The notes below the pieces were generated by a model. It ran no database searches, was not told the DNA's origin, and worked only from the letters and a program-made list of their open reading frames with translations. The position numbers and the translations under genes were made by a program. 61,662 nt of DNA. Source: Nitrobacter winogradskyi (GTDB taxonomy: Bacteria; Pseudomonadota; Alphaproteobacteria; Rhizobiales; Xanthobacteraceae). Of this stretch, positions 17,445 through 36,101 are shown piece by piece (position 1 is the first letter of the stretch; each line of letters opens with the position of its first letter). Where the stretch lies: assembly GCF_006539545.1 (NCBI RefSeq), contig NZ_BJNF01000026.1:1-61662 (forward strand), read 5' to 3'.

Positions 17445-19298
17445 CTATGCGATTTCCCAGAAAGAGGACGACGCCTGAGTCGACGTCGCCACGCCGATCG
17501 ACATGGCGAGCGACACCATTCCGTCGATGCGGGTGGTGGCCTTGTCCTTGTTGAACATGCGATGCCCGGTGCGGTTCTGCTCGTAGACCACGCCGCCGGC
17601 ACACATGCGCATGACCGGGTTCACAGCGACCGTGATGCGCTTCTCGAGCAGCGCCGCCTCAAGCTTATTGATCGAGTCCGGCATCCACCAAACAATGTCG
17701 TCGGCGCCGGTCTCGCGGTTATGATCGCCGTCCCGCTCGCCGATGATGCGCCGCTGAAACCCTTGCGGGTGGACTTCGGCCGGGATTGACCCGCCCTTTT
17801 CGCCGAGCGCGTCCAGGAGCTGCTCGAGACCGTACTGGTCGGCACCGATCATCACCGGGTGATACTTCGCCACAAGATGCTGCAGAGCATCGGCGACCCA
17901 GGAATACCTGATCCGCGGACCTGGTACCGCCTCCATGAATTTCTTTTGGACCCATAGCTCATAGGGCGCACGGTCGGTTTTCGCGCGCTCTTTCAGCGTA
18001 TCGGCCGGCGTCCAGAACCACGTTTTAGAAGCAAATCGCCACTGATCTTTCGTCGCATCGAGCAGCCAGGTTAGTGTGAAGGCGGTCAGGTCGCGCGCGC
18101 GGGAGAGATCGAGGCCGCCATAGCACGGCACGTTGTCCGCGGTGAGTTTGTCGACATCGACATCGCCTTCGCAGTCCTCCCATACCTTGCGCGGAATGGC
18201 TGATGTCGCCGATTCCGTCCATTGGCAGAAGTGCAAGCGGCGCACGAGGCCTTCTTTCGAGGGCATGCCTTGCGCTTCCTGCACTTGCTCGCGGATAAAT
18301 GCGGGCTGAATCGAAACGCCGAGGTTCGGGTTGGCCTTGGGCCAACAGGTCTCATCCTCAAATGGATCGTCGGCCTCATCGAGATTCGCAATGAAGGCGA
18401 ACCAGGCATCGTTCTCGAATTCCCGCTTGAGGATCCGCACGGACATGTCGTGCTCCTGGCCGCAGACCGTCTTTTTGTCGAAACCGGAGTTCGTGATTTC
18501 GAACAAGAGCGCCTCCTGGTTGCCCTTGGTGCCGGCGCGCATCATCTCAATGACAGAATTGTCCGGGTGCTCATGCACTTCGTCGATCAACGCGCAATAG
18601 GGGCGAATGCCGGACTTGCCCTTTTTGTCGGACGAGATCGGCTTGAAGTAGGAATTCACACCGGGGCGACTGGTGTGCAGCTCCCACACCGGATTCGCAC
18701 CCTTCGGCTTCAGGCGCCGCCGCAACGCCGGTGATCGTTCCCACATCGCAACCGCGTCTCGAAACAGGATCGCCGCCTGATCCTTGTCGGTCGCCGCCGA
18801 ATAGACCTCGGCGCGCAGCTTGCGGCAGCCCAGCAGCATGTAGTGACCGATGCCGGCCGCGAGCGGTGACTTGCCGTTGCCCTTACCGATCTCGACGTAG
18901 GCGCGGCGAAACCGCCGGAAACCGAGCGCATTCTTCCAGCCGAACAGGGAGCCGATGATGAACGCCTGCCACGGCTGAAGGTTGAACGGCGACGCATAGG
19001 TGGACACCTCGCCATATTCGTCACGCTCCTCGACCTCGACCGTGAGCACGTCACGGAAGAATCCGATCGCGCGCTGCGCGGCATGCACGTCGAACACCAA
19101 GCCGCGCTTCTCGCCCGACGTGAGGTCGCGCTGATGACGCTCGCATGCGAGACGCACGAGCGGACCCGCAACGATCTCGCCAGCGAGGACGGCCGCGGCA
19201 TAAGCCGTGACCTCGTCCTCCGGTTCGAGATCAGGCTGCGGCGGCGGCGCGGCGCTCGGCGTCGCGTTCGGCGGCAACGTCGTCGAAAGTTCGTCCAT
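17445..19298 (-). CDS. Terminase large subunit
   Basis: A packaging ATPase and nuclease of about 617 residues. The Walker A-like loop is GKGNGKS (about residues 139-145), Walker B is PYCALIDEVHEH (about 233-244), and the nuclease domain begins with CYGGLDLSRARDLTAF, supplying a first metal-binding Asp. Further acidic residues follow in MIGADQYG. The ATG at 19298 gives a 68-base overlap with the methyltransferase gene; a TTG at 19319 is less likely. It would work with TerS at a cos-like site upstream. Confidence 0.93.
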   Translation of the reverse strand: MDELSTTLPPNATPSAAPPPQPDLEPEDEVTAYAAAVLAGEIVAGPLVRLACERHQRDLTSGEKRGLVFDVHAAQRAIGFFRDVLTVEVEERDEYGEVSTYASPFNLQPWQAFIIGSLFGWKNALGFRRFRRAYVEIGKGNGKSPLAAGIGHYMLLGCRKLRAEVYSAATDKDQAAILFRDAVAMWERSPALRRRLKPKGANPVWELHTSRPGVNSYFKPISSDKKGKSGIRPYCALIDEVHEHPDNSVIEMMRAGTKGNQEALLFEITNSGFDKKTVCGQEHDMSVRILKREFENDAWFAFIANLDEADDPFEDETCWPKANPNLGVSIQPAFIREQVQEAQGMPSKEGLVRRLHFCQWTESATSAIPRKVWEDCEGDVDVDKLTADNVPCYGGLDLSRARDLTAFTLTWLLDATKDQWRFASKTWFWTPADTLKERAKTDRAPYELWVQKKFMEAVPGPRIRYSWVADALQHLVAKYHPVMIGADQYGLEQLLDALGEKGGSIPAEVHPQGFQRRIIGERDGDHNRETGADDIVWWMPDSINKLEAALLEKRITVAVNPVMRMCAGGVVYEQNRTGHRMFNKDKATTRIDGMVSLAMSIGVATSTQASSSFWEIA

Positions 19299-20643
19299 CG
19301 GATTCCAGGGTGGCCACAAGGCCAGTAAATTGCTGCCAGCGCTTCACGGCGACATCGACGTAAAGCGGGTTCAGCTCAATCGCGAAGCACTTGCGGCCGG
19401 TGATTTCGGCCGCGATCAGGGTGGTGCCGGATCCGGAGAACGGCTCATAGACCATCTCGCCCGGCTGCGAGTTGTTCTCGATCGGCCGTTTCATGGCCTC
19501 AACCGGCTTTTGGGTGCCGTGACCGGTTTCCGACTTCACATGCTCGATGTTCCAGACGGTCGACTGCTTACGGCCGCCCTCGTAATGGCCGCGCTCGCCG
19601 TCGCGCACGGTGTAGGTCGCAACGTCGTGCTCCGGAACGAAGTGCCAGTGTTCGTCCGCACCCTCTTTCACCGCGTAGAAGCACGGCTCATGCTGGAAGT
19701 GATAATCGCCGCGCCCGAGCACATGACGCTGCTTCACCCAAACGATGTGCGCCCGAATCTTGAATCTGCAGGCCGTGAGGGAATTGGCGACGTCGCCGCA
19801 ATAGGCGCCAGCGTGCCAAATATACGCAACATCGCCAGGAAACAGCTCCCACGCCTCCCGCCAATCGGCGCGGTCATCGTTCAATACCTTGCCGGTCGCA
19901 GCATCCTTTGACGTGACGCCCGCCGCTTGCCGCCAGGCCGGATCATATTTCACGCCATACGGCGGATCGGTGACCATCAGGTGAGGCACCCGGCCCGCCA
20001 GAACGCGCGCGACATCCTCCGGATTGGTGGAATCGCCGTTGGTAATGCGGTGACGCCCGAGGATCCATACATCGCCGCGGCGTGACGTCGGCACCGGCGG
20101 CGGCTCGGGCATCTCGTCCGGATCGGTCAGACCGGCGGTCGGCTCATGCAGCAGACCCGCGATGCGGCCGGGCTCAAAGCCGAGCTGATCCAGCTCAACG
20201 CCGAGCGCGCCAAGCTCGAGCACTTCGCCCTTGAGCAGCTTCTCATCCCAGCCCGTCGACATGGTGAGCTGGTTATCGGCAAGGCGGAATTTGCGCTTTT
20301 CCGCATCTTCCCAGCCGACTGCGATCAGGACGCGGACCTCGGCGAACTGCTCTTGCTTCAGCGCCTCGAGCCGACCATGGCCAGCGATAACGACACCCGC
20401 CTCATCGACGAGCACACGGTGCACCTGCCCATATTGCCGGAGCGAAGCTCGAATCTGATCCAGCTGCGCCTGGTCGTGCTTCTTGGCGTTACGATCATAA
20501 GGCCGCAGCCGGTCGATCGGCCAGGTTTCCTCGCGAACACGATTGGCCGCACGCGGCCCGATGGGTTCAAGCTCGACGCGCGGCGCCTCGGCCTTCGGCT
20601 TCCGGGTCCGCTTTGGTTTAGTCGAAGTATTGGTCATTTTCAT
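19231..20643 (-). CDS. ParB-domain / DNA methyltransferase fusion
   Basis: About 470 residues from the ATG at 20643 (20637 is also possible). The N-terminal third is a ParB/Srx-like domain (RLRPYDRNAKKHDQAQLDQI, then VIAGHGRLEALKQEQ). The C-terminal part is a beta-class amino-methyltransferase: the catalytic motif VTDPPYGVKY precedes the SAM-binding FSGSGTTLIAAE. This points to N6-adenine or N4-cytosine methylation. It lies between TerS and TerL, overlapping both. A role in protecting phage DNA or in marking packaging DNA is an inference. The target sequence is unknown. Confidence 0.88.
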   Translation of the reverse strand: MKMTNTSTKPKRTRKPKAEAPRVELEPIGPRAANRVREETWPIDRLRPYDRNAKKHDQAQLDQIRASLRQYGQVHRVLVDEAGVVIAGHGRLEALKQEQFAEVRVLIAVGWEDAEKRKFRLADNQLTMSTGWDEKLLKGEVLELGALGVELDQLGFEPGRIAGLLHEPTAGLTDPDEMPEPPPVPTSRRGDVWILGRHRITNGDSTNPEDVARVLAGRVPHLMVTDPPYGVKYDPAWRQAAGVTSKDAATGKVLNDDRADWREAWELFPGDVAYIWHAGAYCGDVANSLTACRFKIRAHIVWVKQRHVLGRGDYHFQHEPCFYAVKEGADEHWHFVPEHDVATYTVRDGERGHYEGGRKQSTVWNIEHVKSETGHGTQKPVEAMKRPIENNSQPGEMVYEPFSGSGTTLIAAEITGRKCFAIELNPLYVDVAVKRWQQFTGLVATLESDGRTFDDVAAERDAERRAAAAA

Positions 20644-21088
20644 CAAACAGGTCGCCCTGACCGGGCAGAAGGTTGCGCTCATCGGTCGGCGACAAGCCGA
20701 GCATCGCAATGAGCGATCGCCACTGTCGCCAACTCTCGTTGACCTGCGCAACATGCGGGTGGCTTTTCACCTGATCGCCGTTGCGCGTTTTCACGCGGTA
20801 AATTTCGTGCGCCAGCGTCGGCATTGACGCCCGCAGGCCGCGCATTCGAACGGTGCAGCGGCAATATTCAATGATCGTGTCGATGTAGCGCGCCTTGAGA
20901 CGATCGACGGAAGGATCCGCAAGTATCGCAGCGACGCGCTTGTATTCCTTCTCGACCTCGGGCGGCAGGTCACGCGGCATCAGCCGGCGGATCGCCCGCT
21001 GCATCATCTTCTTGCGAAGCTTTTCCGCATCGACGTCATCCGGCCGCATCGGGATGACGTTTCGGAGCTTTGGTTTAGCACCGCGCAT
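20618..21088 (-). CDS. Terminase small subunit, P27 family
   Basis: A 156-residue DNA-recognition subunit. It shows the P27 pattern: PPEVEKEYKRVAAILAD (about 42-58), a Tyr-rich helix DTIIEYCRCTVRMRGLRAS (about 70-88), SHPHVAQVNESWRQWRSL (about 108-125), then LGLSPTDERNLL near 132. It would bind the packaging site and recruit TerL. The start is the ATG at 21088 rather than the TTG before it. It overlaps the methyltransferase start by 26 bases. Confidence 0.87.
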   Translation of the reverse strand: MRGAKPKLRNVIPMRPDDVDAEKLRKKMMQRAIRRLMPRDLPPEVEKEYKRVAAILADPSVDRLKARYIDTIIEYCRCTVRMRGLRASMPTLAHEIYRVKTRNGDQVKSHPHVAQVNESWRQWRSLIAMLGLSPTDERNLLPGQGDLFDENDQYFD

Positions 21089-21091
21089 CAA

Positions 21092-21903: not shown

Positions 21904-22608
21904 TCAACGGCAGCGAAAGCTGCCTCGCCGAGGCCTTGGCCTCTCACGAACCGTGCAGACATCCGTTGGATACTGTGACGGTTCGATCTGCCACTCCGAC
22001 ACAACGGTCGGCGACAGGCGTCCGAATATCTCAATGGCTACGCTGAGTCGCCCTCTGGAGTCGAGTCGCTCAATTCGACCGGAGAAGTCGCGGAACGGAC
22101 CATCCACAATGCGAACGAGATCTCCAATATCGAACTTCGCGTCGCGTTTGCTGAACGGCGTGTTCGCAATCGCGACCAAAGCATGGATGTCCTCCATGCA
22201 AGCTCCGCGCTCCGACGTCGCTTCGCGCTCTGACGGAATGCGCGCGAACCATTCGCCAAACCGCAGCCATCCCGAAACGCCGCTTATATCTGCCGGTACG
22301 CGCTCAAAATCCGGAACGAACAGGAGTTGCGGGAATAGCGGCACCATGACCTGCCGCTTGATCTCATAAGTCCAGCTCGATCCATGCACCCTGCGAACCA
22401 CCCGCTGCTGCTTCATAATCAGAGGACAATAGGCGCTGACATTCCGCCGCTCGAATTCACGCATCACCTTGCGCTCGCGGCCCGGATGGGTACGCAGAAT
22501 GAACCACCACTTCGGCTGCATCGGCACCGATGCCGGGCCACGCACCGTGTCGAGATCAACCGTTCCGACGAATTGACCGATCTCAAGCCGCTGCAGTTCA
22601 CCGATCAT
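21904..22608 (-). CDS. NusG-like transcription factor, phage paralogue
   Basis: About 234 residues from the ATG at 22608, which overlaps the end of the initiator gene. The N-terminal NGN domain shows KWWFILRTHPGRERKVMREF (about 33-52), then PLFPQLLFVPDF. The C-terminal KOW domain is FDIGDLVRIVDGPFRDFSG (about 160-178) followed by SRGRLSVAIEIFGR. NusG and RfaH relatives bind RNA polymerase to control pausing and termination. As last gene of the early operon, right before a terminator and the late genes, it may be the late antiterminator. That is an inference. Confidence 0.85.
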   Translation of the reverse strand: MIGELQRLEIGQFVGTVDLDTVRGPASVPMQPKWWFILRTHPGRERKVMREFERRNVSAYCPLIMKQQRVVRRVHGSSWTYEIKRQVMVPLFPQLLFVPDFERVPADISGVSGWLRFGEWFARIPSEREATSERGACMEDIHALVAIANTPFSKRDAKFDIGDLVRIVDGPFRDFSGRIERLDSRGRLSVAIEIFGRLSPTVVSEWQIEPSQYPTDVCTVRERPRPRRGSFRCR

Positions 22609-23785
22609 CTTCCGGGCCTCCCTCTTGCTGGTCACCGATGACGTCATCGGAAGTTGTCGATGCATCGGGCGACATTTCGTCGGCCGCACTTTCGAGATAG
22701 ATCGTCCCGTCTTTCCTCGGCGGCCATGGCCAAGGCGCAAAGGCACCTGTCATGATCCGCCGGCGCGTCGCGACCGTGACGTGGTCAGCCAGATATCGAT
22801 CCCATGCCGCCGCTTGCTGATTGTTCAACGCGGACCACTGCGCTCGCGGTGGCGCGTTAGCCAGCGCCAGAAGCCGGGGCGTCAGCTCACCACGCCAGCT
22901 CACGCGGCCATCCGGCATGCGGTAGACCTTCTGAAAGAAAGCCTCGAGCATGGCGATCTGGTGCAGCGTTGCGAGTGCCGTGGCGGCGCTACTCCCGGGC
23001 GGATGATGCACGGTGGACGCCGTCGTTTCCGGCTTGGCCGCGGAAAGCAGCTCCCATCGCCGCTGCTCGAGGTACTTCCAGCCGGCCGGTATACGATCGC
23101 GCTTTACCCGCTTTTGCTCGGCGAGAAACCCAGCGATGCCTCGGAGTGCGGCTTCGCGCTGCTGGGCCGTGAGTGCGGCTGCGGCGTACGCCGTTCGCTG
23201 ACGATCGTCGACCGCAGCCGAAGGCCAGCGAGCCTCGAACGTCGTGAGAAAGCGGGCAACCGACTCATGTTCGGTCTTTCCCTCGCGCGCGCGCTCTCTC
23301 TCACGTTCAAGGTGGGGTCGTTCTAAGGGGTCGTTCTTGGTGCCCACGTATGTGTGGGCACCCGGTGCCCGCCCAGGGTGGGCACCCGGGTGCTCATCTA
23401 TGGGCACCCCCTCCGGAGCCGGACCGCACGAATCTGGCGCCGGAGGCAGGGTGCTCGCTGGTGGGCACCCCCGGCCGGGCTCATCCTGATCGAGCAATAC
23501 GCGGTATGCATAGCTCGCGCTTGGATGACGACTGGTGTCATCGTCATCAGAAAGATCGCGGCGCTTCATTTGCACCCAACCGGCGCCGACCAGGCGCTCC
23601 AGGGCGCGCTGAATGGTCGCGCGACCGCAGTCGAGCTCGGCGGACATCTTCACCTGACTGCGCCGGCACCAGCCCAAATCGTCGGTGTGCCGGCCAAGCA
23701 GGCACAGCACCTGCAAGTCGCGCGGCTCCAGCGAGCGGTCGGTGACAGCGCCGGCGGGAATAATCGAATATCGGGGCGACGGCAT
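22598..23785 (-). CDS. Replication initiator-like protein with winged helix
   Basis: A 395-residue protein. Residues about 1-85 form a winged helix (LQVLCLLGRHTDDLGWCRRS, ELDCGRATIQRALERLVGAG). A Pro/Gly-rich linker of about residues 100-150 is encoded by iteron-like DNA repeats. A conserved block near 180-245 (FEARWPSAAVDDRQR, IPAGWKYLEQRRWEL) recurs in a second phage protein. The overall plan, initiator with origin repeats inside its own gene, parallels lambda O. There is no helicase or primase motif, so host factors would be recruited. Confidence 0.75.
   Translation of the reverse strand: MPSPRYSIIPAGAVTDRSLEPRDLQVLCLLGRHTDDLGWCRRSQVKMSAELDCGRATIQRALERLVGAGWVQMKRRDLSDDDDTSRHPSASYAYRVLLDQDEPGRGCPPASTLPPAPDSCGPAPEGVPIDEHPGAHPGRAPGAHTYVGTKNDPLERPHLERERERAREGKTEHESVARFLTTFEARWPSAAVDDRQRTAYAAAALTAQQREAALRGIAGFLAEQKRVKRDRIPAGWKYLEQRRWELLSAAKPETTASTVHHPPGSSAATALATLHQIAMLEAFFQKVYRMPDGRVSWRGELTPRLLALANAPPRAQWSALNNQQAAAWDRYLADHVTVATRRRIMTGAFAPWPWPPRKDGTIYLESAADEMSPDASTTSDDVIGDQQEGGPEDDR
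23314..23471. repeat. Iteron array inside initiator gene (candidate replication origin)
   Basis: Four imperfect palindromes with the plan GGTGCYC(A/G)-N-GGGCACC: 23339-23362, 23364-23386, 23389-23409 and 23450-23469. The first three start exactly 25 bases apart; the fourth lies 61 bases further on. Beside them an 11-base direct repeat (GGGGTCGTTCT) occurs at 23314-23324 and 23327-23337. The array encodes the low-complexity linker of the initiator. No AT-rich melting region is obvious next to it. Confidence 0.75.
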
Positions 23786-25117: not shown

Positions 25118-25656
25118 CGCTGCACCTTGCGGCTACGATTGCGATCGAACTTCTCGCCCTCGGCGATCCCGAGCGCGCACCCCTTGACGAGATCGCGACG
25201 GAAGCCGGTCGGCTTCCACCATTCGATTTCCCAGGGCCAGAAATGCGGGAGATAGAACTTTGCATTGCGGCCGACATCGGCGCCTTCAATGAGATGACAA
25301 TCGGCCTGCTTGAGATAGGCAGCGCCCGCGTGCGCCAAATCCCCCCGCGCATGTTCATCGTCATGCGCCGAGTCCCAGCCCTCGACATCCTGTTGCCGAT
25401 AGCGCTCCGCGATCACCGCCTGCATGAACGGCGAGAGCGGCCGGCGGATATGCAGCGCCTCGAACAGCCGCCGCAGCGTGAACGACCGCACGATCGAGAT
25501 CGCGGTCATGATAAGCGCGAAGATGAAATTCGCATGCCACGGGACCGGAACCCCGAGCATCGGCAGGAAAACAGCCTGCGCGGCCATGCTGATGCCGAAG
25601 CCGACAACGATATTGATGATGCTTTCCAGCACCGACATCCATTTCGATTGTTTCAT
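25114..25656 (-). CDS. Membrane protein fused to a soluble phage domain
   Basis: A 180-residue protein. Residues 1-62 look like a DUF7220-type two-helix membrane unit ([20 protein letters not shown], then [16 protein letters not shown]). Residues about 75-180 are soluble with [37 protein letters not shown] and a Trp-rich [11 protein letters not shown], a block seen as a separate phage protein in other genomes. The fusion would anchor that soluble domain to the inner membrane. Activity is unknown. Confidence 0.65.
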
Positions 25657-27692
25657 CTCGCAGCCCCAAACATGTTGATTTGCACAGGCGTCAAAGGCTC
25701 CGGCTGCGTGAGCGGAGCCGGCGCGTTCGTGGCTTCGGTCTCCCGCAGCCAGGCGTGGCCGGCCTCGGTGACGGCGAGGCCGCCGCAGTCGTCGATGACG
25801 CTAAGAAAGCCGTGCCCGATCAGGTCGCGCTCGTAGCTCGCGCGCCGGGATGCCGACAGATCTGCGCGGTAAGCGCCGGCGACCGCTGCCAGCACCTCGC
25901 GCATCTCCTGTTCCTCATCGGAAAGATCAGAGACCGCAGGCGGTGTGAGCACTTTCGGCGCAACGCCGGCGCGCTCGCGCTTCAGCTCATCCAGACGGTC
26001 GTAGCCGGCAGCGGTAAGCCCCCAATCCGTGACACCGCCATACTTGAACACCAGCCCGCGGGCGATGTAGTCGACCGCAACCGGGCCGATGACGGCGAAC
26101 CGATCCGGCGTCGCGAAACTCGAGAACGCCTTGAGGACGGTGAATTCGTCGGCCTCGCTGTCGGGCGGCGGCGGCGCCGCTTCCGCCGACGCCCCGGCCA
26201 ATTCGGGCGCGACGCTGTCAATCGTATCGGCGAATTCGTCAACCGCATCGGCGGTCACGTCAACCGGATCAGTTGGGGCGGAAAGGACGAAAGCCGCGAC
26301 GGGCAACGTCGTCGCGCCTCCGGCGAATGACTCATCGGCCGTACTTCCGGGCGCGATGGTCTCCGCAGGTCGAAGTTGCAAGTTTGCGCAACTCGGCAAA
26401 CTGACCGCAATGCTTGTCTCAGCGGTCTCGTTGGTAATGGTGGCGGACTCGGTCGTCGCATCGTCCGACGACGGACTAGTCTGGTTGCCCCACCCTTCCC
26501 ACTTCGGCGGCAACGGATGCTCGGCATTGACGCGGGCGAACAGCTCCATCACCGGCAGCCCGCCGCACATGGTGGCGATCATCTCCCGGTAGAATTCAGG
26601 CTTGCGCGAATGTCCGAGCGGCTTTGAGCGCTCGCGATGATTGGAGCCGAACTTTTCCTTCGTATCCGGCTTCGGCAGGCCGCGCCCGCGCTTGAACAAG
26701 AGCAGGATTTCGTCCTGGTCGTAAGCAATTACGCCGCCGCCCTGATCTTCCGGGTGCTCTTCGTCGGTCTTGGTCCAGACGAAGGCGGTCGAGTAGCTGT
26801 CGCAGCCCCAGGCGCGCGCCACGGCCCACGCCAGCGGCAACTGCACCTTGCGTGTGATGACGCAACCATCATCGGTCGCGAATTCCATATCGACCGTATG
26901 CAGCGCGAACATGTGCGCGCGCGGGATCCAGAGAAATACCCAGGCATCCGGCAGCAGCACATCCTTGACCGGCAGCGCGCAGATGTCGTCCCACGTCATG
27001 GTGGGATAGTGGTTCTCATAAGAGCGGCCGGTGACACCCTGTTTCCGGTGCCAGGGCGGATCCGCATAGACGACGGGAAACCGGCGTCCCATTGGCAGTT
27101 TTGCAGTTTCGTCCGAAAGCGCCTGCTGCAGCGCGCGGCGCCGCTCGCGGCCATCGGCCTCGGCCTCAAAGCGTACAGCCTTCGCCGATACGAGCAGCCC
27201 GCGCTTTTCTTCGTCCGTTGCCGGAACAAACTGGACGATCTTATATGTACGCCGGTCGCGACCCTGCCGTTCAGTCGACTGGGGAATTTCCCCAGTCGAC
27301 TCGAGTCCGTCCCGCACCGAGCCGACCGTTTTGTGATCCACACCCAGCGATGCCGCAATCGCACGATCGCTCGCCTCCGGGCGTTCGCGCAGATCCTCAG
27401 CGATCAATTGCCGCCGCTGCTCGCGATCAAGATGGCGGCGATCCAGATTGAGCCGGCGCGCGTGCTGCCGCTTTTCGGTCTCCGTCAACCCATGACGAAT
27501 GAGGCGCGGCCATTGCGAAATGCCAAGCTCGCCGCAGATCTGCACGCGGTGATGGCCGTCGAGGATTTCACCGGTCTCGTCATATTCGACCGGAACCAGC
27601 ACACCGCGGGCCGCAATATCGTCTCTTAAGGCGGCATATTCATCGGCCGACAGCGGCGGCATGACCTGATAGGGCTGGTCTTCGGCACTCAA
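25653..27692 (-). CDS. ParB-domain / MT-A70 methyltransferase fusion
   Basis: A 679-residue multidomain protein. Residues about 10-75 are ParB-like (GVLVPVEYDETGEILDGHHR), followed by a helical DNA-binding section (EASDRAIAASLGVDHKTVGS, about 108-127). The MT-A70 N6-adenine methyltransferase core has VVYADPPWHRKQG with the DPPW motif (about 205-217) and SYENHYPTMTWDDI. An acidic Ala/Pro/Thr linker (about 400-520) leads to a C-terminal winged-helix-like region (VTDWGLTAAGYDRLDELKRE). Target site unknown; it may protect phage DNA or regulate genes. Confidence 0.85.
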   Translation of the reverse strand: MSAEDQPYQVMPPLSADEYAALRDDIAARGVLVPVEYDETGEILDGHHRVQICGELGISQWPRLIRHGLTETEKRQHARRLNLDRRHLDREQRRQLIAEDLRERPEASDRAIAASLGVDHKTVGSVRDGLESTGEIPQSTERQGRDRRTYKIVQFVPATDEEKRGLLVSAKAVRFEAEADGRERRRALQQALSDETAKLPMGRRFPVVYADPPWHRKQGVTGRSYENHYPTMTWDDICALPVKDVLLPDAWVFLWIPRAHMFALHTVDMEFATDDGCVITRKVQLPLAWAVARAWGCDSYSTAFVWTKTDEEHPEDQGGGVIAYDQDEILLLFKRGRGLPKPDTKEKFGSNHRERSKPLGHSRKPEFYREMIATMCGGLPVMELFARVNAEHPLPPKWEGWGNQTSPSSDDATTESATITNETAETSIAVSLPSCANLQLRPAETIAPGSTADESFAGGATTLPVAAFVLSAPTDPVDVTADAVDEFADTIDSVAPELAGASAEAAPPPPDSEADEFTVLKAFSSFATPDRFAVIGPVAVDYIARGLVFKYGGVTDWGLTAAGYDRLDELKRERAGVAPKVLTPPAVSDLSDEEQEMREVLAAVAGAYRADLSASRRASYERDLIGHGFLSVIDDCGGLAVTEAGHAWLRETEATNAPAPLTQPEPLTPVQINMFGAAR

Positions 27693-28177
27693 AACGGCAC
27701 CTCCCCCACGTCGACGCTGGCAGCGTGCGCGGTCAGCAGTTCAGCGATGATGGATTCCAGCGACGGGACACGGCCGCGCGGGCGGCGGTTGGCGGCATTT
27801 TCGCCGGGCGTCAGCCAGCGCAGATTGCAGCGACGGTTATCCAGCGTCTGCCCGTTGATGTGATCGACATGGCGCTTCGCCATGAACCGCTCGGAACGCG
27901 GGTCGCGGCGGATCAGGATCTCGCGATGCATGCGCACCGTAGCGCGGCCCGCCCCGACATTGCGCTTGGCATATTGCTGCCACGGCGTTCGCGAGCCCCA
28001 ACTGATGTTCCAGGTGACCTCGGTGAGCCAGCCATAGTCGTCGGCGTCAACCAGACAATACACGCCACGCCGCTCCGACAGCGGAATCAGTCGCCACGGC
28101 GTGGGCGACAGATCGACCTGTTCGAGCGTAATAAGTTCGACCGGCTGCGGCTTGAGGAGAGCGGCGGTGTGCATCAT
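27689..28177 (-). CDS. HNH endonuclease, homing type
   Basis: A 162-residue protein with a beta-rich substrate domain (YCLVDADDYGWLTEVTWNIS, about 40-59) and an HNH motif: MHREIL near 84, HVDHINGQTLDNRRCNLRWL near 103-122, then TPGENAANRR. This is the standard layout of phage HNH homing endonucleases. It sits in the early operon in frame with its neighbours (4-base overlaps), not in an intron. Confidence 0.85.
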   Translation of the reverse strand: MMHTAALLKPQPVELITLEQVDLSPTPWRLIPLSERRGVYCLVDADDYGWLTEVTWNISWGSRTPWQQYAKRNVGAGRATVRMHREILIRRDPRSERFMAKRHVDHINGQTLDNRRCNLRWLTPGENAANRRPRGRVPSLESIIAELLTAHAASVDVGEVPF

Positions 28178-28794
28178 TCGCCTTCACCTTCGTCGCTGCT
28201 TTCGTCGCTGATCTCATCCAGCTTGCTCGCCTGGCTGCGCTTCTCGGCCGCGTCGGCCTTGCGCCTGACGTCCTCGCTCGCAAGCTTTCCGCCGGGCACC
28301 ATGGTGAGCACGGTCGCCGGCGCTTTGAGAGAGCGGCCGGTCTTTTCCTTTGGCGCTGCCGCCGGCGGCACATAGACCTCGGCATAGGCCCGGCCCTCTT
28401 CGTCGCGCCACAGCCGCATCGGCTCGCCGCCGACGCGGGCGATGATTTCGCCGTTGGCCGGGATCAGCGACGACAACGCGTCGATGACCTGCTCGCGCGC
28501 CAGCACGTCGACGCCGAGCGCTCGCACCATCGACGGCAGCGGCGCCTCGGGCGTCATGCCGAGTTCGGCCATATAGGTCTCAAAGATGGAATCTTCCTCG
28601 GCGACCTCGGCCGGATCCTTGTCGCGCCGCTTGATGATGCGGCGCATGGCCTTGGTGTCGAAGCCCTCGGCTTTGGCTTCGGCGAACACCGCCTTCATAT
28701 CGTCGCCGAGATCACGCCGATCGGCCGCGATCCGTTCGACCCGCTCAATGAAATCCTTCAGGCGTGAGCGCGCTTCGGCGCGGGCCGTCGTCAT
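28174..28794 (-). CDS. GapR-like (DUF2312) DNA-binding protein with extension
   Basis: A 206-residue protein. The first 75 residues match DUF2312/GapR: RLKDFIERVERIAADRRDLG, KAVFAEAKAEGFDTKAMRRI and EDSIFETYMAELG. Host GapR clamps overtwisted DNA ahead of replication forks and helps topoisomerases. The remaining 130 residues are an added beta-containing region and an acidic Ser/Glu-rich tail (SDESSDEGEGE), unlike the roughly 90-residue host protein. It may replace or compete with host GapR during phage replication. That is an inference. Confidence 0.85.
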   Translation of the reverse strand: MTTARAEARSRLKDFIERVERIAADRRDLGDDMKAVFAEAKAEGFDTKAMRRIIKRRDKDPAEVAEEDSIFETYMAELGMTPEAPLPSMVRALGVDVLAREQVIDALSSLIPANGEIIARVGGEPMRLWRDEEGRAYAEVYVPPAAAPKEKTGRSLKAPATVLTMVPGGKLASEDVRRKADAAEKRSQASKLDEISDESSDEGEGE

Positions 28795-29414
28795 CGGACG
28801 CCCCTTTTCAATCTCTGCAGATCAGCATCGTGCGCCGAGTCGGGCATGGCGGATGACGCCACGTCCGACTCGGCTACCATCGGGGTTGCAACACCAACCG
28901 ATGAAGGAGATTCGCGATGAGCGACGACGAACGAAAGTGGCCCTACGGACTCGCGACCGATCACATCGATCGCCTGCATGACCTTGATCTGCAGCCGCCC
29001 GAGGTCTTCAGCGATGTCGTGCAGATATTCGAGAGCGGCGGCACACTGCGCTTTGTCTTTCGCGCTAGCCGTCCCGAACTCGGTGACCCCTGTAGCGACC
29101 CGACCGTTCCGGTCGCCCGAGTTGCTATCAGCCGGCGCTATTTCACCGCCGCGCTGCAGGATGCGCTCGCCAAGCTGCCGCCCGGTTGACGGCAGCAGCT
29201 TCCAGCGCTTCTCTTCCAGATATTTCCAACCGGCGGGCACGTATCTGCGGCGAAGCCGCTCCAGCTCGGCCAGGAAGGGTGCGACGCCGGCAAGCGCCGC
29301 CTCTCGATCGGAATCGGATAATCGCGATGCGGCCTGCGTAACCCGGTCCCGTTCGTCGAACGACGCGGTCGGCCAGGAGGCATTGAAGGAACTCAGAAAG
29401 GACTGAATGTTCAT
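28791..29414 (-). CDS. Protein sharing a domain with the replication initiator
   Basis: A 207-residue early protein. Residues about 5-75 repeat the initiator block: SFLSSFNASWPTASFDERDR and YVPAGWKYLEEKRWKLLP, against similar text in the 22598-23785 gene. The rest is helical (LEYLHDIAEDLGRLQIKV) and then low in complexity. It lacks the winged helix. It overlaps the GapR-like gene by 4 bases. It could modulate the initiator by sharing a binding partner. Confidence 0.7.
   Translation of the reverse strand: MNIQSFLSSFNASWPTASFDERDRVTQAASRLSDSDREAALAGVAPFLAELERLRRRYVPAGWKYLEEKRWKLLPSTGRQLGERILQRGGEIAPADSNSGDRNGRVATGVTEFGTASAKDKAQCAAALEYLHDIAEDLGRLQIKVMQAIDVIGRESVGPLSFVVAHRESPSSVGVATPMVAESDVASSAMPDSAHDADLQRLKRGVR
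28917..29189 (+). CDS. Possible antisense small gene
   Basis: A 90-codon frame on the plus strand inside the initiator-domain gene. It has a good ribosome binding site (GAAGGAGA, about 7 bases before the ATG) and a protein-like start MSDDERKWPYGLATDHID. It overlaps only the non-conserved half of the opposite gene (residues about 75-166). Third-position GC is high by rough count. It may be real or a chance frame. Confidence 0.3.
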   Translation: MSDDERKWPYGLATDHIDRLHDLDLQPPEVFSDVVQIFESGGTLRFVFRASRPELGDPCSDPTVPVARVAISRRYFTAALQDALAKLPPG

Positions 29415-34715: not shown

Positions 34716-34906
34716 GCAGGACGCCCGCGCGCATCACCCAGGCTGACGTTTCCCGCGCTCTGCGAGCAGCAAAGCAGGCCGGCGCCGGCTACGTTGAAGT
34801 TATGCCGGACGGGACAATCAGGATCAGCTTTTCCCCGCAATCCACTGTTCCAACAAGCAAAACCCCAGAAACTCAGCTTGAACGGCCGCCGGATGTCATC
34901 CTGTGA
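34712..34906 (+). CDS. Small protein before the integrase
   Basis: A 64-residue protein (MSRTPARITQADVSRALRAA) with a helical start and a beta hairpin GYVEVMPDGTIRISFS. It overlaps the DUF5131 stop and its own stop shares a base with the integrase ATG. Position would suit a recombination directionality factor, but it is not a recognisable excisionase. Confidence 0.6.
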   Translation: MSRTPARITQADVSRALRAAKQAGAGYVEVMPDGTIRISFSPQSTVPTSKTPETQLERPPDVIL

Positions 34907-35994
34907 TGGCCGACATGGCAAGGCCCCGCCCTCCTTATCTGCTAAGTGAACGAACCCGCCACGGCAAGCGGGTCTGGTACGTCCGTATCGGGACCGGCCC
35001 GAGGATTCGGATTAAGGGCGAGTACGGCAGTGCAGAGTTTATGGAAGCGTACCATGCCGCCTTGGCAGGCGAGCGACCCCAGCCTAAGAGTGAGGCGGCG
35101 CGCGGTACGTTAGAATGGCTTTGGACGCTCTATCGCCAATCGTCGGCCTGGGCCGACCTATCGGCAGCGACCCGAAAGCAGCGCGAGAACATTATGAAGC
35201 ATGTTCTCAAAAGTGCCGGTCATCAGCCCTTGTCCCATATCACCCGCGCGTCGATCGTCGCCGGGCGTGACCGCAGAGCAAAGACGCCGTCCCAGGCGAA
35301 GAACTTCATCAGCACGGTTCGCGGCCTCTTTGGTTGGGCGCTCGATGCGAACCTGGTCAACTTCGATCCGACAGCCGGCGTGAAGCGGCCGAAGCGGAAA
35401 CGCTCGGAAGGATTCCAGGTCTGGACAGAGGATGACATCGAGAAATTTCAGAAGCGATGGAATCGAGGAACGCGGGAGCGCGTGATGTTCGATTTGTTCC
35501 TCTACACTGGACTGCGACGGGGAGACGCTGCCCAAGTTGGCAAGCAGCATGTCAAAGACGGCTCCATTTCCATCAACACGGAAAAGACCGGCATCCGCGT
35601 CACCATCCCGATTCAGCCAGAACTCCAAGCCACGTTGGATGCCGGCCCGGTCGGCGATCTGGCGTTCATTGCAACTGCCGCAGGCGTTCCGATGACGAAG
35701 GAGTCGCTTGGCAATGCATTCCGTGATGCCTGTCGATCCGCCGGCATTACAAAATCGGCGCATGGCCTTCGCAAAGCTGCGGCGACCAACGCGGCGAACC
35801 GCGGGGCAACTGAGCGCGAATTGGAGGCCCTGTTCGGATGGGTTGGTGGCCAGATGGCATCGCTCTACACGCGATCGGTAAACCGGGAGGCTCTATCAAA
35901 AGGAGCCGCCGCCAAGATGTCGAGGGACGAAAGGGAAACGTCTATCCCCGCACCCTGTGATAAGGTGCGGGCGTCAGGCCGAAAAACCGAGTAA
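34906..35994 (+). CDS. int: Tyrosine recombinase (phage integrase)
   Basis: A 362-residue integrase. The start is the ATG at 34906, joined to the upstream stop as TGATG; a GTG at 34903 is also possible. The core-binding domain is about residues 65-165 (RKQRENIMKHVLKSAGHQPL). Catalytic residues are Arg in LYTGLRRGD (about 200), His/Arg in AHGLRKAAAT (about 285-288), and Tyr in ASLYTRS (about 323). It ends 22 bases before the tRNA-Leu 3' end, the expected attachment site. Confidence 0.95.
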   Translation: MADMARPRPPYLLSERTRHGKRVWYVRIGTGPRIRIKGEYGSAEFMEAYHAALAGERPQPKSEAARGTLEWLWTLYRQSSAWADLSAATRKQRENIMKHVLKSAGHQPLSHITRASIVAGRDRRAKTPSQAKNFISTVRGLFGWALDANLVNFDPTAGVKRPKRKRSEGFQVWTEDDIEKFQKRWNRGTRERVMFDLFLYTGLRRGDAAQVGKQHVKDGSISINTEKTGIRVTIPIQPELQATLDAGPVGDLAFIATAAGVPMTKESLGNAFRDACRSAGITKSAHGLRKAAATNAANRGATERELEALFGWVGGQMASLYTRSVNREALSKGAAAKMSRDERETSIPAPCDKVRASGRKTE

Positions 35995-36016
35995 TAACAA
36001 GAGGATTTTTGGGCAA

Positions 36017-36101
36017 TGGTGCGCTCGAAAGGACTCGAACCTTCACGATGTTACTCACTGCCACCTCAAGGCAGCGCGTCTACCAATTCCGCCACGAGCG
36101 C
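36017..36101 (-). tRNA. tRNA-Leu (anticodon GAG), prophage attachment site
   Basis: An 85-base tRNA with encoded CCA. The acceptor stem pairs GCGCTCG with CGAGCGC. The anticodon loop is TTGAGGT (anticodon GAG) on a CTGCC/GGCAG stem, with a short variable arm (class II) and a GGTTCGAGTCC T-arm. It is intact. The prophage abuts its 3' end. Confidence 0.95.

Follow-up and report, generated by a model that had tools for sequence, protein, structure and literature searches.

Origins inside initiator genes

Replication origins that lie inside initiator genes are known from phages and plasmids. The origin of phage lambda, as in its Stx-phage relatives, is in the middle of the initiator gene, where four imperfect inverted-repeat iterons are bound by the initiator and the unwinding region adjoins them (PMC7466680). 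The SPP1 initiator gp38 binds direct repeats within its own gene, at oriL (PMC6316719). In the plasmids pSK41 and pTZ2162, the RepA_N initiators use an N-terminal winged helix to bind four Rep boxes located centrally in rep, and the central linker, which is encoded by the origin, is dispensable (PMC5703833). The same paper reports that a mini-replicon of pPR9 replicates, and that the N-terminal HTH of pPR9 Rep is pfam13730 and has been likened to a phage replication protein (PMC5703833). The structure 4PT7 is cited together with S. aureus plasmid RepA proteins (PMC7145576). Sinorhizobium phage phi2LM21 encodes phi2LM21_p26, a relative of the protein described here that was called a putative replication initiation protein; in a word search, the main text of that paper contained neither 'origin' nor 'iteron' (PMC5537653).

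The locus analyzed here is an initiator gene (22598-23785, minus strand, 395 aa) within a 61,662-nucleotide stretch of Nitrobacter winogradskyi DNA, referred to throughout as the window. As in lambda O, palindromic iterons lie within the gene, in the stretch that separates the N-terminal part from the C-terminal part. A preliminary description of this DNA had proposed that the iterons share the position of those in lambda O while their sequence is unlike lambda, and both statements were borne out. The locus differs from lambda in its iteron sequence, in having 13-mers with an AACG core and a GA/GC tail, in lacking an AT-rich tract, and in that no loader (P) gene was recognized in the early module; sequence similarity to the O-like PHROG 391 is weak (E 1e-3). 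Lambda O and pSK41 RepA share the order of winged helix, iterons in linker-coding DNA and C-terminal part. Unlike the staphylococcal RepA_N proteins, the protein here has no RepA_N domain (PF06970) among its Pfam-A matches up to E 0.01, its iterons are GC-rich without a poly-A core, and its C-terminal region, folded separately, gave no significant fold match in the PDB. The likeness to pPR9 Rep is in the N-terminal PF13730 (HTH_36) domain, for which the match here is below the cut-off (E 3.6e-5, 23.9 bits against a cut-off of 25). pPR9 Rep differs in being a chimeric protein of a staphylococcal plasmid with a pSK41-type C-terminal domain. In SPP1 the unwinding element is AT-rich, and the phage encodes both a loader (gp39) and a helicase (gp40); none of these was recognized here. 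In phi2LM21_p26, an array of a second type (type B, defined below) occupies the same place in the gene.

An initiator-like gene in a phage early module

Residues 6-309 of the encoded protein matched PHROG 270 (E 1.4e-13; positions 32-277 of 383 in the profile), a family named 'replication initiation protein'. PHROG 428 of the same name matched more weakly (E 1.4e-6), and all NCBIfam matches were far below cut-off. An AF2 model divides it into a winged helix, a disordered linker and a helical C-terminal part. The winged-helix DNA-binding domain spans residues about 5-98 (23492-23773, minus strand), with pLDDT of 91-96 in ten-residue blocks of residues 11-70 and 68-85 in blocks of 71-100, and the C-terminal helical region (residues 158-370; 22676-23314, minus strand) is confident over most of its length. 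Because the pTM is 0.46, the model does not give the relative placement of the domains.

In a Foldseek search of the PDB, the winged helix had its best match in 4pt7, 'Structure of initiator' (E 0.025, TM 0.46 by target length). Ranks 3 and 4 were 4pql and 5kbj, the latter a Rep-DNA complex, both of which we take to be of the same group as 4PT7, the S. aureus plasmid RepA proteins. These fold matches are weak (E 0.025-0.054 for the Rep entries) and intermixed with MarR-like regulators; a profile search of solved structures likewise returned mainly generic winged-helix regulators, the best being a MarR-family protein at E 0.0024. Viral fold models gave 74 matches at E up to 0.001. Most of the 50 viral (BFVD) matches listed (of 605) are unnamed or plain HTH proteins. 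Those with names comprise, among others, a RepA-like replication initiator at E 1.8e-6, the replication protein O of phage Min27 and a replisome organizer, each at E 4.1e-5, and a DnaD protein at E 1.4e-4.

The early phage module around the initiator contains GapR-like, MT-A70/ParB-like, HNH and NusG-like genes, and is followed by genes for the terminase small subunit (20618-21091) and large subunit (17445-19319), the portal, the head protease and the major head protein. An integrase gene beside tRNA-Leu (34903-36101) marks a likely attachment site. No helicase, primase or loader was recognized among the early-module proteins searched, with a diverged loader possible; the one 'DNA helicase' match (PHROG 16) corresponds to the methyltransferase part of the gene at 19231-20754. 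That gene and the one at 25653-27692, both on the minus strand, encode fusions of a ParB-like part with a DNA methyltransferase part, which in the gene at 25653-27692 is MT-A70. The module also encodes a phage-borne GapR-like DNA-binding protein (28174-28794, minus strand; PF10073, E 8.1e-26). Immediately downstream of the initiator is a NusG/KOW antiterminator-like gene (21904-22746, minus strand), and an antitermination gene is annotated beside the initiator relative in phi2LM21 and in a Nostoc phage too.

A palindrome array in linker-coding DNA

The preliminary description had reported four imperfect palindromes with GGTGCYC and GGGCACC arms within 131 bases, inside the linker-coding DNA of a winged-helix gene. 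All four are present at 23339-23469, where the array coincides with the low-confidence, disordered linker of the AF2 model (residues about 101-153). Palindromes 1 (23339-23362), 2 (23364-23386), 3 (23389-23408) and 4 (23450-23469, GGTGCTC...GGGCACC) were all delimited by pattern match, and each is kept in close relatives. The left arms of three palindromes are exactly 25 bases apart, as had been noted; this spacing does not hold as a fixed feature, since the palindromes differ in length (24, 23 and 20 bases) and spacings in the relatives are mostly 20-24. An 11-base direct repeat was confirmed at 23314-23324 and 23327-23337, directly 3' of the array in the gene direction. The absence of an AT-rich region was also correct: GC content is 73.5% in the array and 57% in the direct repeat, compared to 65.7% for the gene, and the GA/GC tail described below has 63%.

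The pattern GGTGCYCN{4,12}GGGCACC gave six strand matches at four places in the 61.7-kb window, all within the array, compared to 0.02 expected from 100 shuffles. A looser pattern ending in GRGCACC is found at six places in the whole 3.96-Mb genome, four of which are the array palindromes. Chance was assessed with 1000 synonymous permutations of the gene that held protein and codons fixed. Within 131 nt of the array, one 7-mer occurs six times without overlap, whereas the permutations averaged 2.55 and reached at most 5, so that none of the 1000 attained six. When perfect 7-bp inverted repeats were counted regardless of motif, the result was less striking, with 3 in the gene versus a permutation mean of 1.23. 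The eight arms occupy all three codon phases and are translated as GCP, AST, GVP, EHP, GAH, RAP, GAH and VGT; therefore, a repeated peptide cannot be their cause.

The array in relatives of the initiator

Relatives were gathered by protein similarity, with a second protein scan of viral contigs contributing the best 80 of 126. The 257 hits gave 161 distinct complete genes after incomplete, identical and under-230-aa entries were dropped, and setting aside 31 genes found by DNA pattern alone left a protein-found set of 130, the window's gene included. Type A or type B iterons are carried in the linker of 111 of the 130. Type A (41 genes) has GGTGCCC/GGGCACC arms in the linker, as in the window, and extends from 91% down to about 31% identity, whereas type B (70 genes, including phi2LM21) has CCTGCCG...CGGCACC arms in the same place in the gene.

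Seventeen of the 19 other genes were inspected, the remaining two (L034, L036) being barely related. A script counted inverted repeats (6-bp arms, no overlap) in the linkers, with no chance level attached, and gave 3-5 for 15 of these 17 genes and two for L171 and L204. By eye, the arms are GGTGCCAAC/GTTGGCACC in L216, L218 and L227, TGCCGCTATAGCGGCA in L043 and L159, GGTGTCC/GGACACC in L269, and ATGCCGGT/ACCGGCAT in L195 and L198. Whole half-site sequences have been swapped between lineages with the layout kept. The copies within one gene largely agree, so the iteron copies change together.

The preliminary description had suggested homologous initiator genes as a check, in which the repeats should be kept while the encoded residues drift, and this check was clearly passed. 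Arms in type-A genes use three codon phases, with at least two phases in 28 of 41 genes, and the same 7-mer is translated as GAH, GVP, GCP and GAQ. In a blind per-gene test against 60 synonymous permutations, the most repeated 7-mer had to exceed 95% or more of them and to fall within 90 codons past the winged helix; 102 of 130 genes passed and 28 failed, and even in 24 of the 28 failing genes the top 7-mer was within those 90 codons. No clear array was seen in L013, L017, L030, L031 and L035, relatives that are matched mainly in the C-terminal part and that the winged-helix profile matches weakly or not at all.

Three further relatives (L032, L037, L038) have the C-terminal half in common with the initiator, while their N-terminal part is barely or not matched by the winged-helix profile. 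By eye, their linkers contain other palindromes, TTAGCCC with GGGCTAA or TAGCCCT with AGGGCTA, and the N-terminal domain and array may have been exchanged as one cassette in these genes. Nostoc phage Nsp-JY10 (L289), recorded on a cyanobacterium, has a rhizobial-type initiator with a type-B array, and its host label may deserve a check.

Scans by DNA pattern alone

Two DNA patterns, for types A and B and free of protein information, were run against IMG/VR and retrieved 23 and 78 stretches, giving 100 loci (22 type A, 78 type B); these include the window's own phage (L060) and leave out L009, which also matched. The array was within an ORF with an initiator-type winged helix (E below 1e-3) at 88 of the 100 loci (15 of 22 type A, 73 of 78 type B). 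Seven of the other 12 look like truncated copies, being located where the stored stretch ends and having the downstream block (described below) as well; one (L139) is a distant relative at the winged-helix threshold; and four, all type A, are unrelated, comprising one zinc-ribbon gene seen three times and one collagen-like gene. By hand count, 19 of the 100 loci were on contigs already fetched by protein, some of which helped build the winged-helix profile; without those 19, the array was in a gene with the winged helix at 70 of 81 loci. A control pattern with similar composition and symmetry returned seven loci, none with the winged helix. By this comparison, the array location is nearly exclusive to this winged-helix gene. 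In the order searched, the strict type-A pattern was present in 1 of 297 genomes, the window's own, a result that describes the rarity of this pattern and is compatible with other iteron types.

A conserved block downstream of the palindromes

Past the last arm in the gene direction are two tandem 12-13-mers with an AACG core (23314-23338, minus strand; AAGAACGACCCC and TTAGAACGACCCC on the gene strand), which contain the 11-base direct repeat and are a candidate melting or loading element. A third, degenerate copy is at 23304-23311 (minus strand, CTTGAACG). It is followed by the GA/GC tail at 23284-23303 (minus strand; TGAGAGAGAGCGCGCGCGCG on the gene strand), identified from codon-identity ratios and from GAGAGAG in relatives. 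The AACG 13-mers were also considered by eye as CtrA-like TTAA pairs or DnaA boxes, and these assignments were dropped for misfit in spacing and sequence.

This block could be counted in 121 of 127 genes. At least two AACG copies occur within 60 nt past the last arm in 108 of the 121, mostly at a spacing of 13 or 14, with three copies in 63 and four in 3, and the mean per 60-nt stretch is 2.40 versus 0.39 in letter shuffles. GAGAGAG is found past the last arm in 93 of the 121 relatives. The AACG 13-14-mers and the GA/GC tail are common to groups with differing iterons.

Synonymous constraint was measured as codon identity relative to expectation at positions with the same amino acid. For type A (42 genes, including one known from the pattern scans alone; 827 pairs with less than 80% identity), a constrained block extends over codons 127-168 (23282-23407), with ratios of 2.0-2.3 over codons 127-156 and of 1.97 and 1.86 over codons 157-168 (1.86 for codons 163-168), before dropping to 0.83 over codons 169-174. 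Ratios were 1.4-1.8 over codons 103-126, which cover palindrome 4 and the next spacer, where data are sparse; windows on palindrome 4 gave 1.5-1.6, and the range outside the array and downstream block was 0.92-1.68. A parallel block was present in type B (70 genes, 2372 pairs), where ratios of 1.7-3.3 across the array and the downstream block fell to 1.0-1.2 immediately after it and were at most 1.64 elsewhere. By this comparison of coding sequences, selection acts on the DNA itself. Since constraint continues past the palindromes, the element is larger than the preliminary description had it, and consists of the palindromes, the tandem AACG 13-14-mers and the GA/GC tail.

A recognition-helix residue that varies with one iteron base

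Codon 60 (Arg in the window; 23606-23608, minus strand) is in the recognition helix of the winged helix and differs together with one iteron base, the base after TGCC, in 109 of 111 scored genes. The base was scored in 111 of the 130 genes, with 19 having no clear base. The combinations were Arg with C in 40 genes, Asn with A in 4, and Ala, Asp, Glu, Leu, Ser or Thr with G in 65. The two scored exceptions are L184 (Arg with G), whose half-site TGCGGCA makes the scoring doubtful, and L204 (Ala with A). Contacts of Arg with G, Asn with A and Asp or Glu with C are the usual chemistry; here the G or C would be the one on the opposite strand.

Residue 60 was chosen as the best of several separators of types A and B, and the rule was derived from the same data. 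Positions 12, 20, 70, 75, 76 and more separate the two types likewise, which makes ancestry a confounder that was partly controlled. The tree excluded the recognition helix, the linker and the genes L034, L036 and L046, and it has long branches; on the best tree, the iteron base needs 10 changes. Independent pairs across supported branches gave four in the same direction, none opposite and one with no difference for C/Arg (p 0.125), and two, none and one for A/Asn (p 0.5); the sign tests are not significant because the pairs are too few. The strongest indication that the winged helix reads the array is this agreement between residue and base, and judged from these sequence comparisons the array is almost certainly a DNA element read by the winged helix of the protein it helps to encode.

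The array as a probable replication origin

We consider it quite probable that the array is a phage replication origin embedded in the initiator gene, based on the protein family, the layout and the parallels with lambda O, SPP1 gp38 and pSK41 RepA. The candidate-origin reading of the preliminary description gains support from repeats that are kept as residues drift, from the agreement at residue 60 and from PHROG 270. Points that weigh against it are the lack of an adjoining AT-rich tract, the weak PDB fold matches, the confounding by ancestry and the two exceptions at residue 60, the 28 genes that failed the blind test, and the C-terminally matched relatives that have no clear array. In the mechanism we propose, the N-terminal winged helix would bind 3-5 palindromic iterons in the DNA encoding its own disordered linker. 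The bound initiator would then wrap or strain the DNA and engage the adjacent AACG 13-14-mers and GA/GC tail, the strands would open at these elements, and the C-terminal part would recruit host replication proteins, presumably through contact with the replisome. The broader proposal is about an even bet: a large family of origins in rhizobial-type prophages in which an initiator and its 3-5 sites switch specificity by the residue-60 rule (Arg with C, Asn with A, Asp, Glu, Ala or Ser with G) and in which GC-rich DNA, with no AT-rich tract, opens at the AACG 13-14-mers and tail.

The same protein-DNA evidence would apply if the winged helix bound inside its own gene as an autoregulatory operator and blocked transcription of the operon, and because the sites are within a coding sequence that precedes the NusG-like and late genes, they could act as a roadblock. 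No arms were found in the 500 nt upstream of the initiator gene, and among 109 type-A and type-B genes only one had at least two within 300 nt; this absence of sites near the gene start or in front of it speaks against a simple autorepressor. Together with 3-5 tandem sites, conserved 13-mers and a GA/GC tail that exceed what a roadblock needs, and with a family and several fold matches that are replication proteins, it makes an operator unlikely. A site for partition (centromere-like) or for packaging (pac-like), recognized by the initiator protein, is suggested by terminase genes about 2-6 kb downstream of the array and by the ParB-like domains encoded nearby. We regard it as very unlikely, in that the partner seen to differ with the sites, in a comparison that covered this protein, is the gene's own winged helix, and the integrase by tRNA-Leu points to an integrating prophage, which would have little need of partition.

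Each palindrome could also form a hairpin in the mRNA, and with a NusG/KOW protein gene coming next, the array might be an attenuator or an antitermination site for that protein. Such an RNA role is less likely still, given that the varying base goes with a recognition residue of the winged helix, that half-site sequences are exchanged between lineages while the layout stays constant, and that conservation extends to the AACG 13-mers and GA/GC tail, which are not palindromic. The linker is of low complexity and disordered, and the motif-blind inverted repeats are only 3 versus 1.23, as would fit repeats that arose incidentally from protein-level selection for a repetitive Pro/Gly/Ala/His linker. 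This explanation is the least likely of those considered, being contradicted by the one 7-mer that encodes GAH, GVP, GCP and GAQ, by the 0 of 1000 permutations that reach its count, and by codon identity at 1.7-3.3 times expectation.

Novelty and implications

The preliminary description called this a new origin type for rhizobial siphophages. As worded, this is too strong, since origins inside initiator genes are known; what does stand is that the iteron family, the GC-rich layout and the AACG 13-mers differ from those described. Among the papers listed by searches of open-licence PubMed Central, none was listed as describing these arrays or an origin of this kind. Three things look new: the iteron family, the match between its switches and a single recognition residue, and conserved GC-rich sequence in place of an AT-rich tract.

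These findings provide a predicted origin and initiator for a widespread prophage group, which by record titles is mainly from rhizobial and related genera. They also provide a natural variant series, in which an initiator has changed together with its multiple sites although these are constrained to encode part of the protein, so that co-evolution of a reader with a multi-copy site can be tested. With no AT-rich tract, such an origin also poses the question of how it would melt.

One further gene of the window resembles the initiator in part. This second ORF (28791-29414, minus strand), with no NCBIfam match, resembles initiator residues about 163-249 at 48-51% identity and lacks the winged helix. 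The pair formed by the initiator and this second ORF is also present in a genome of the same genus (G004).
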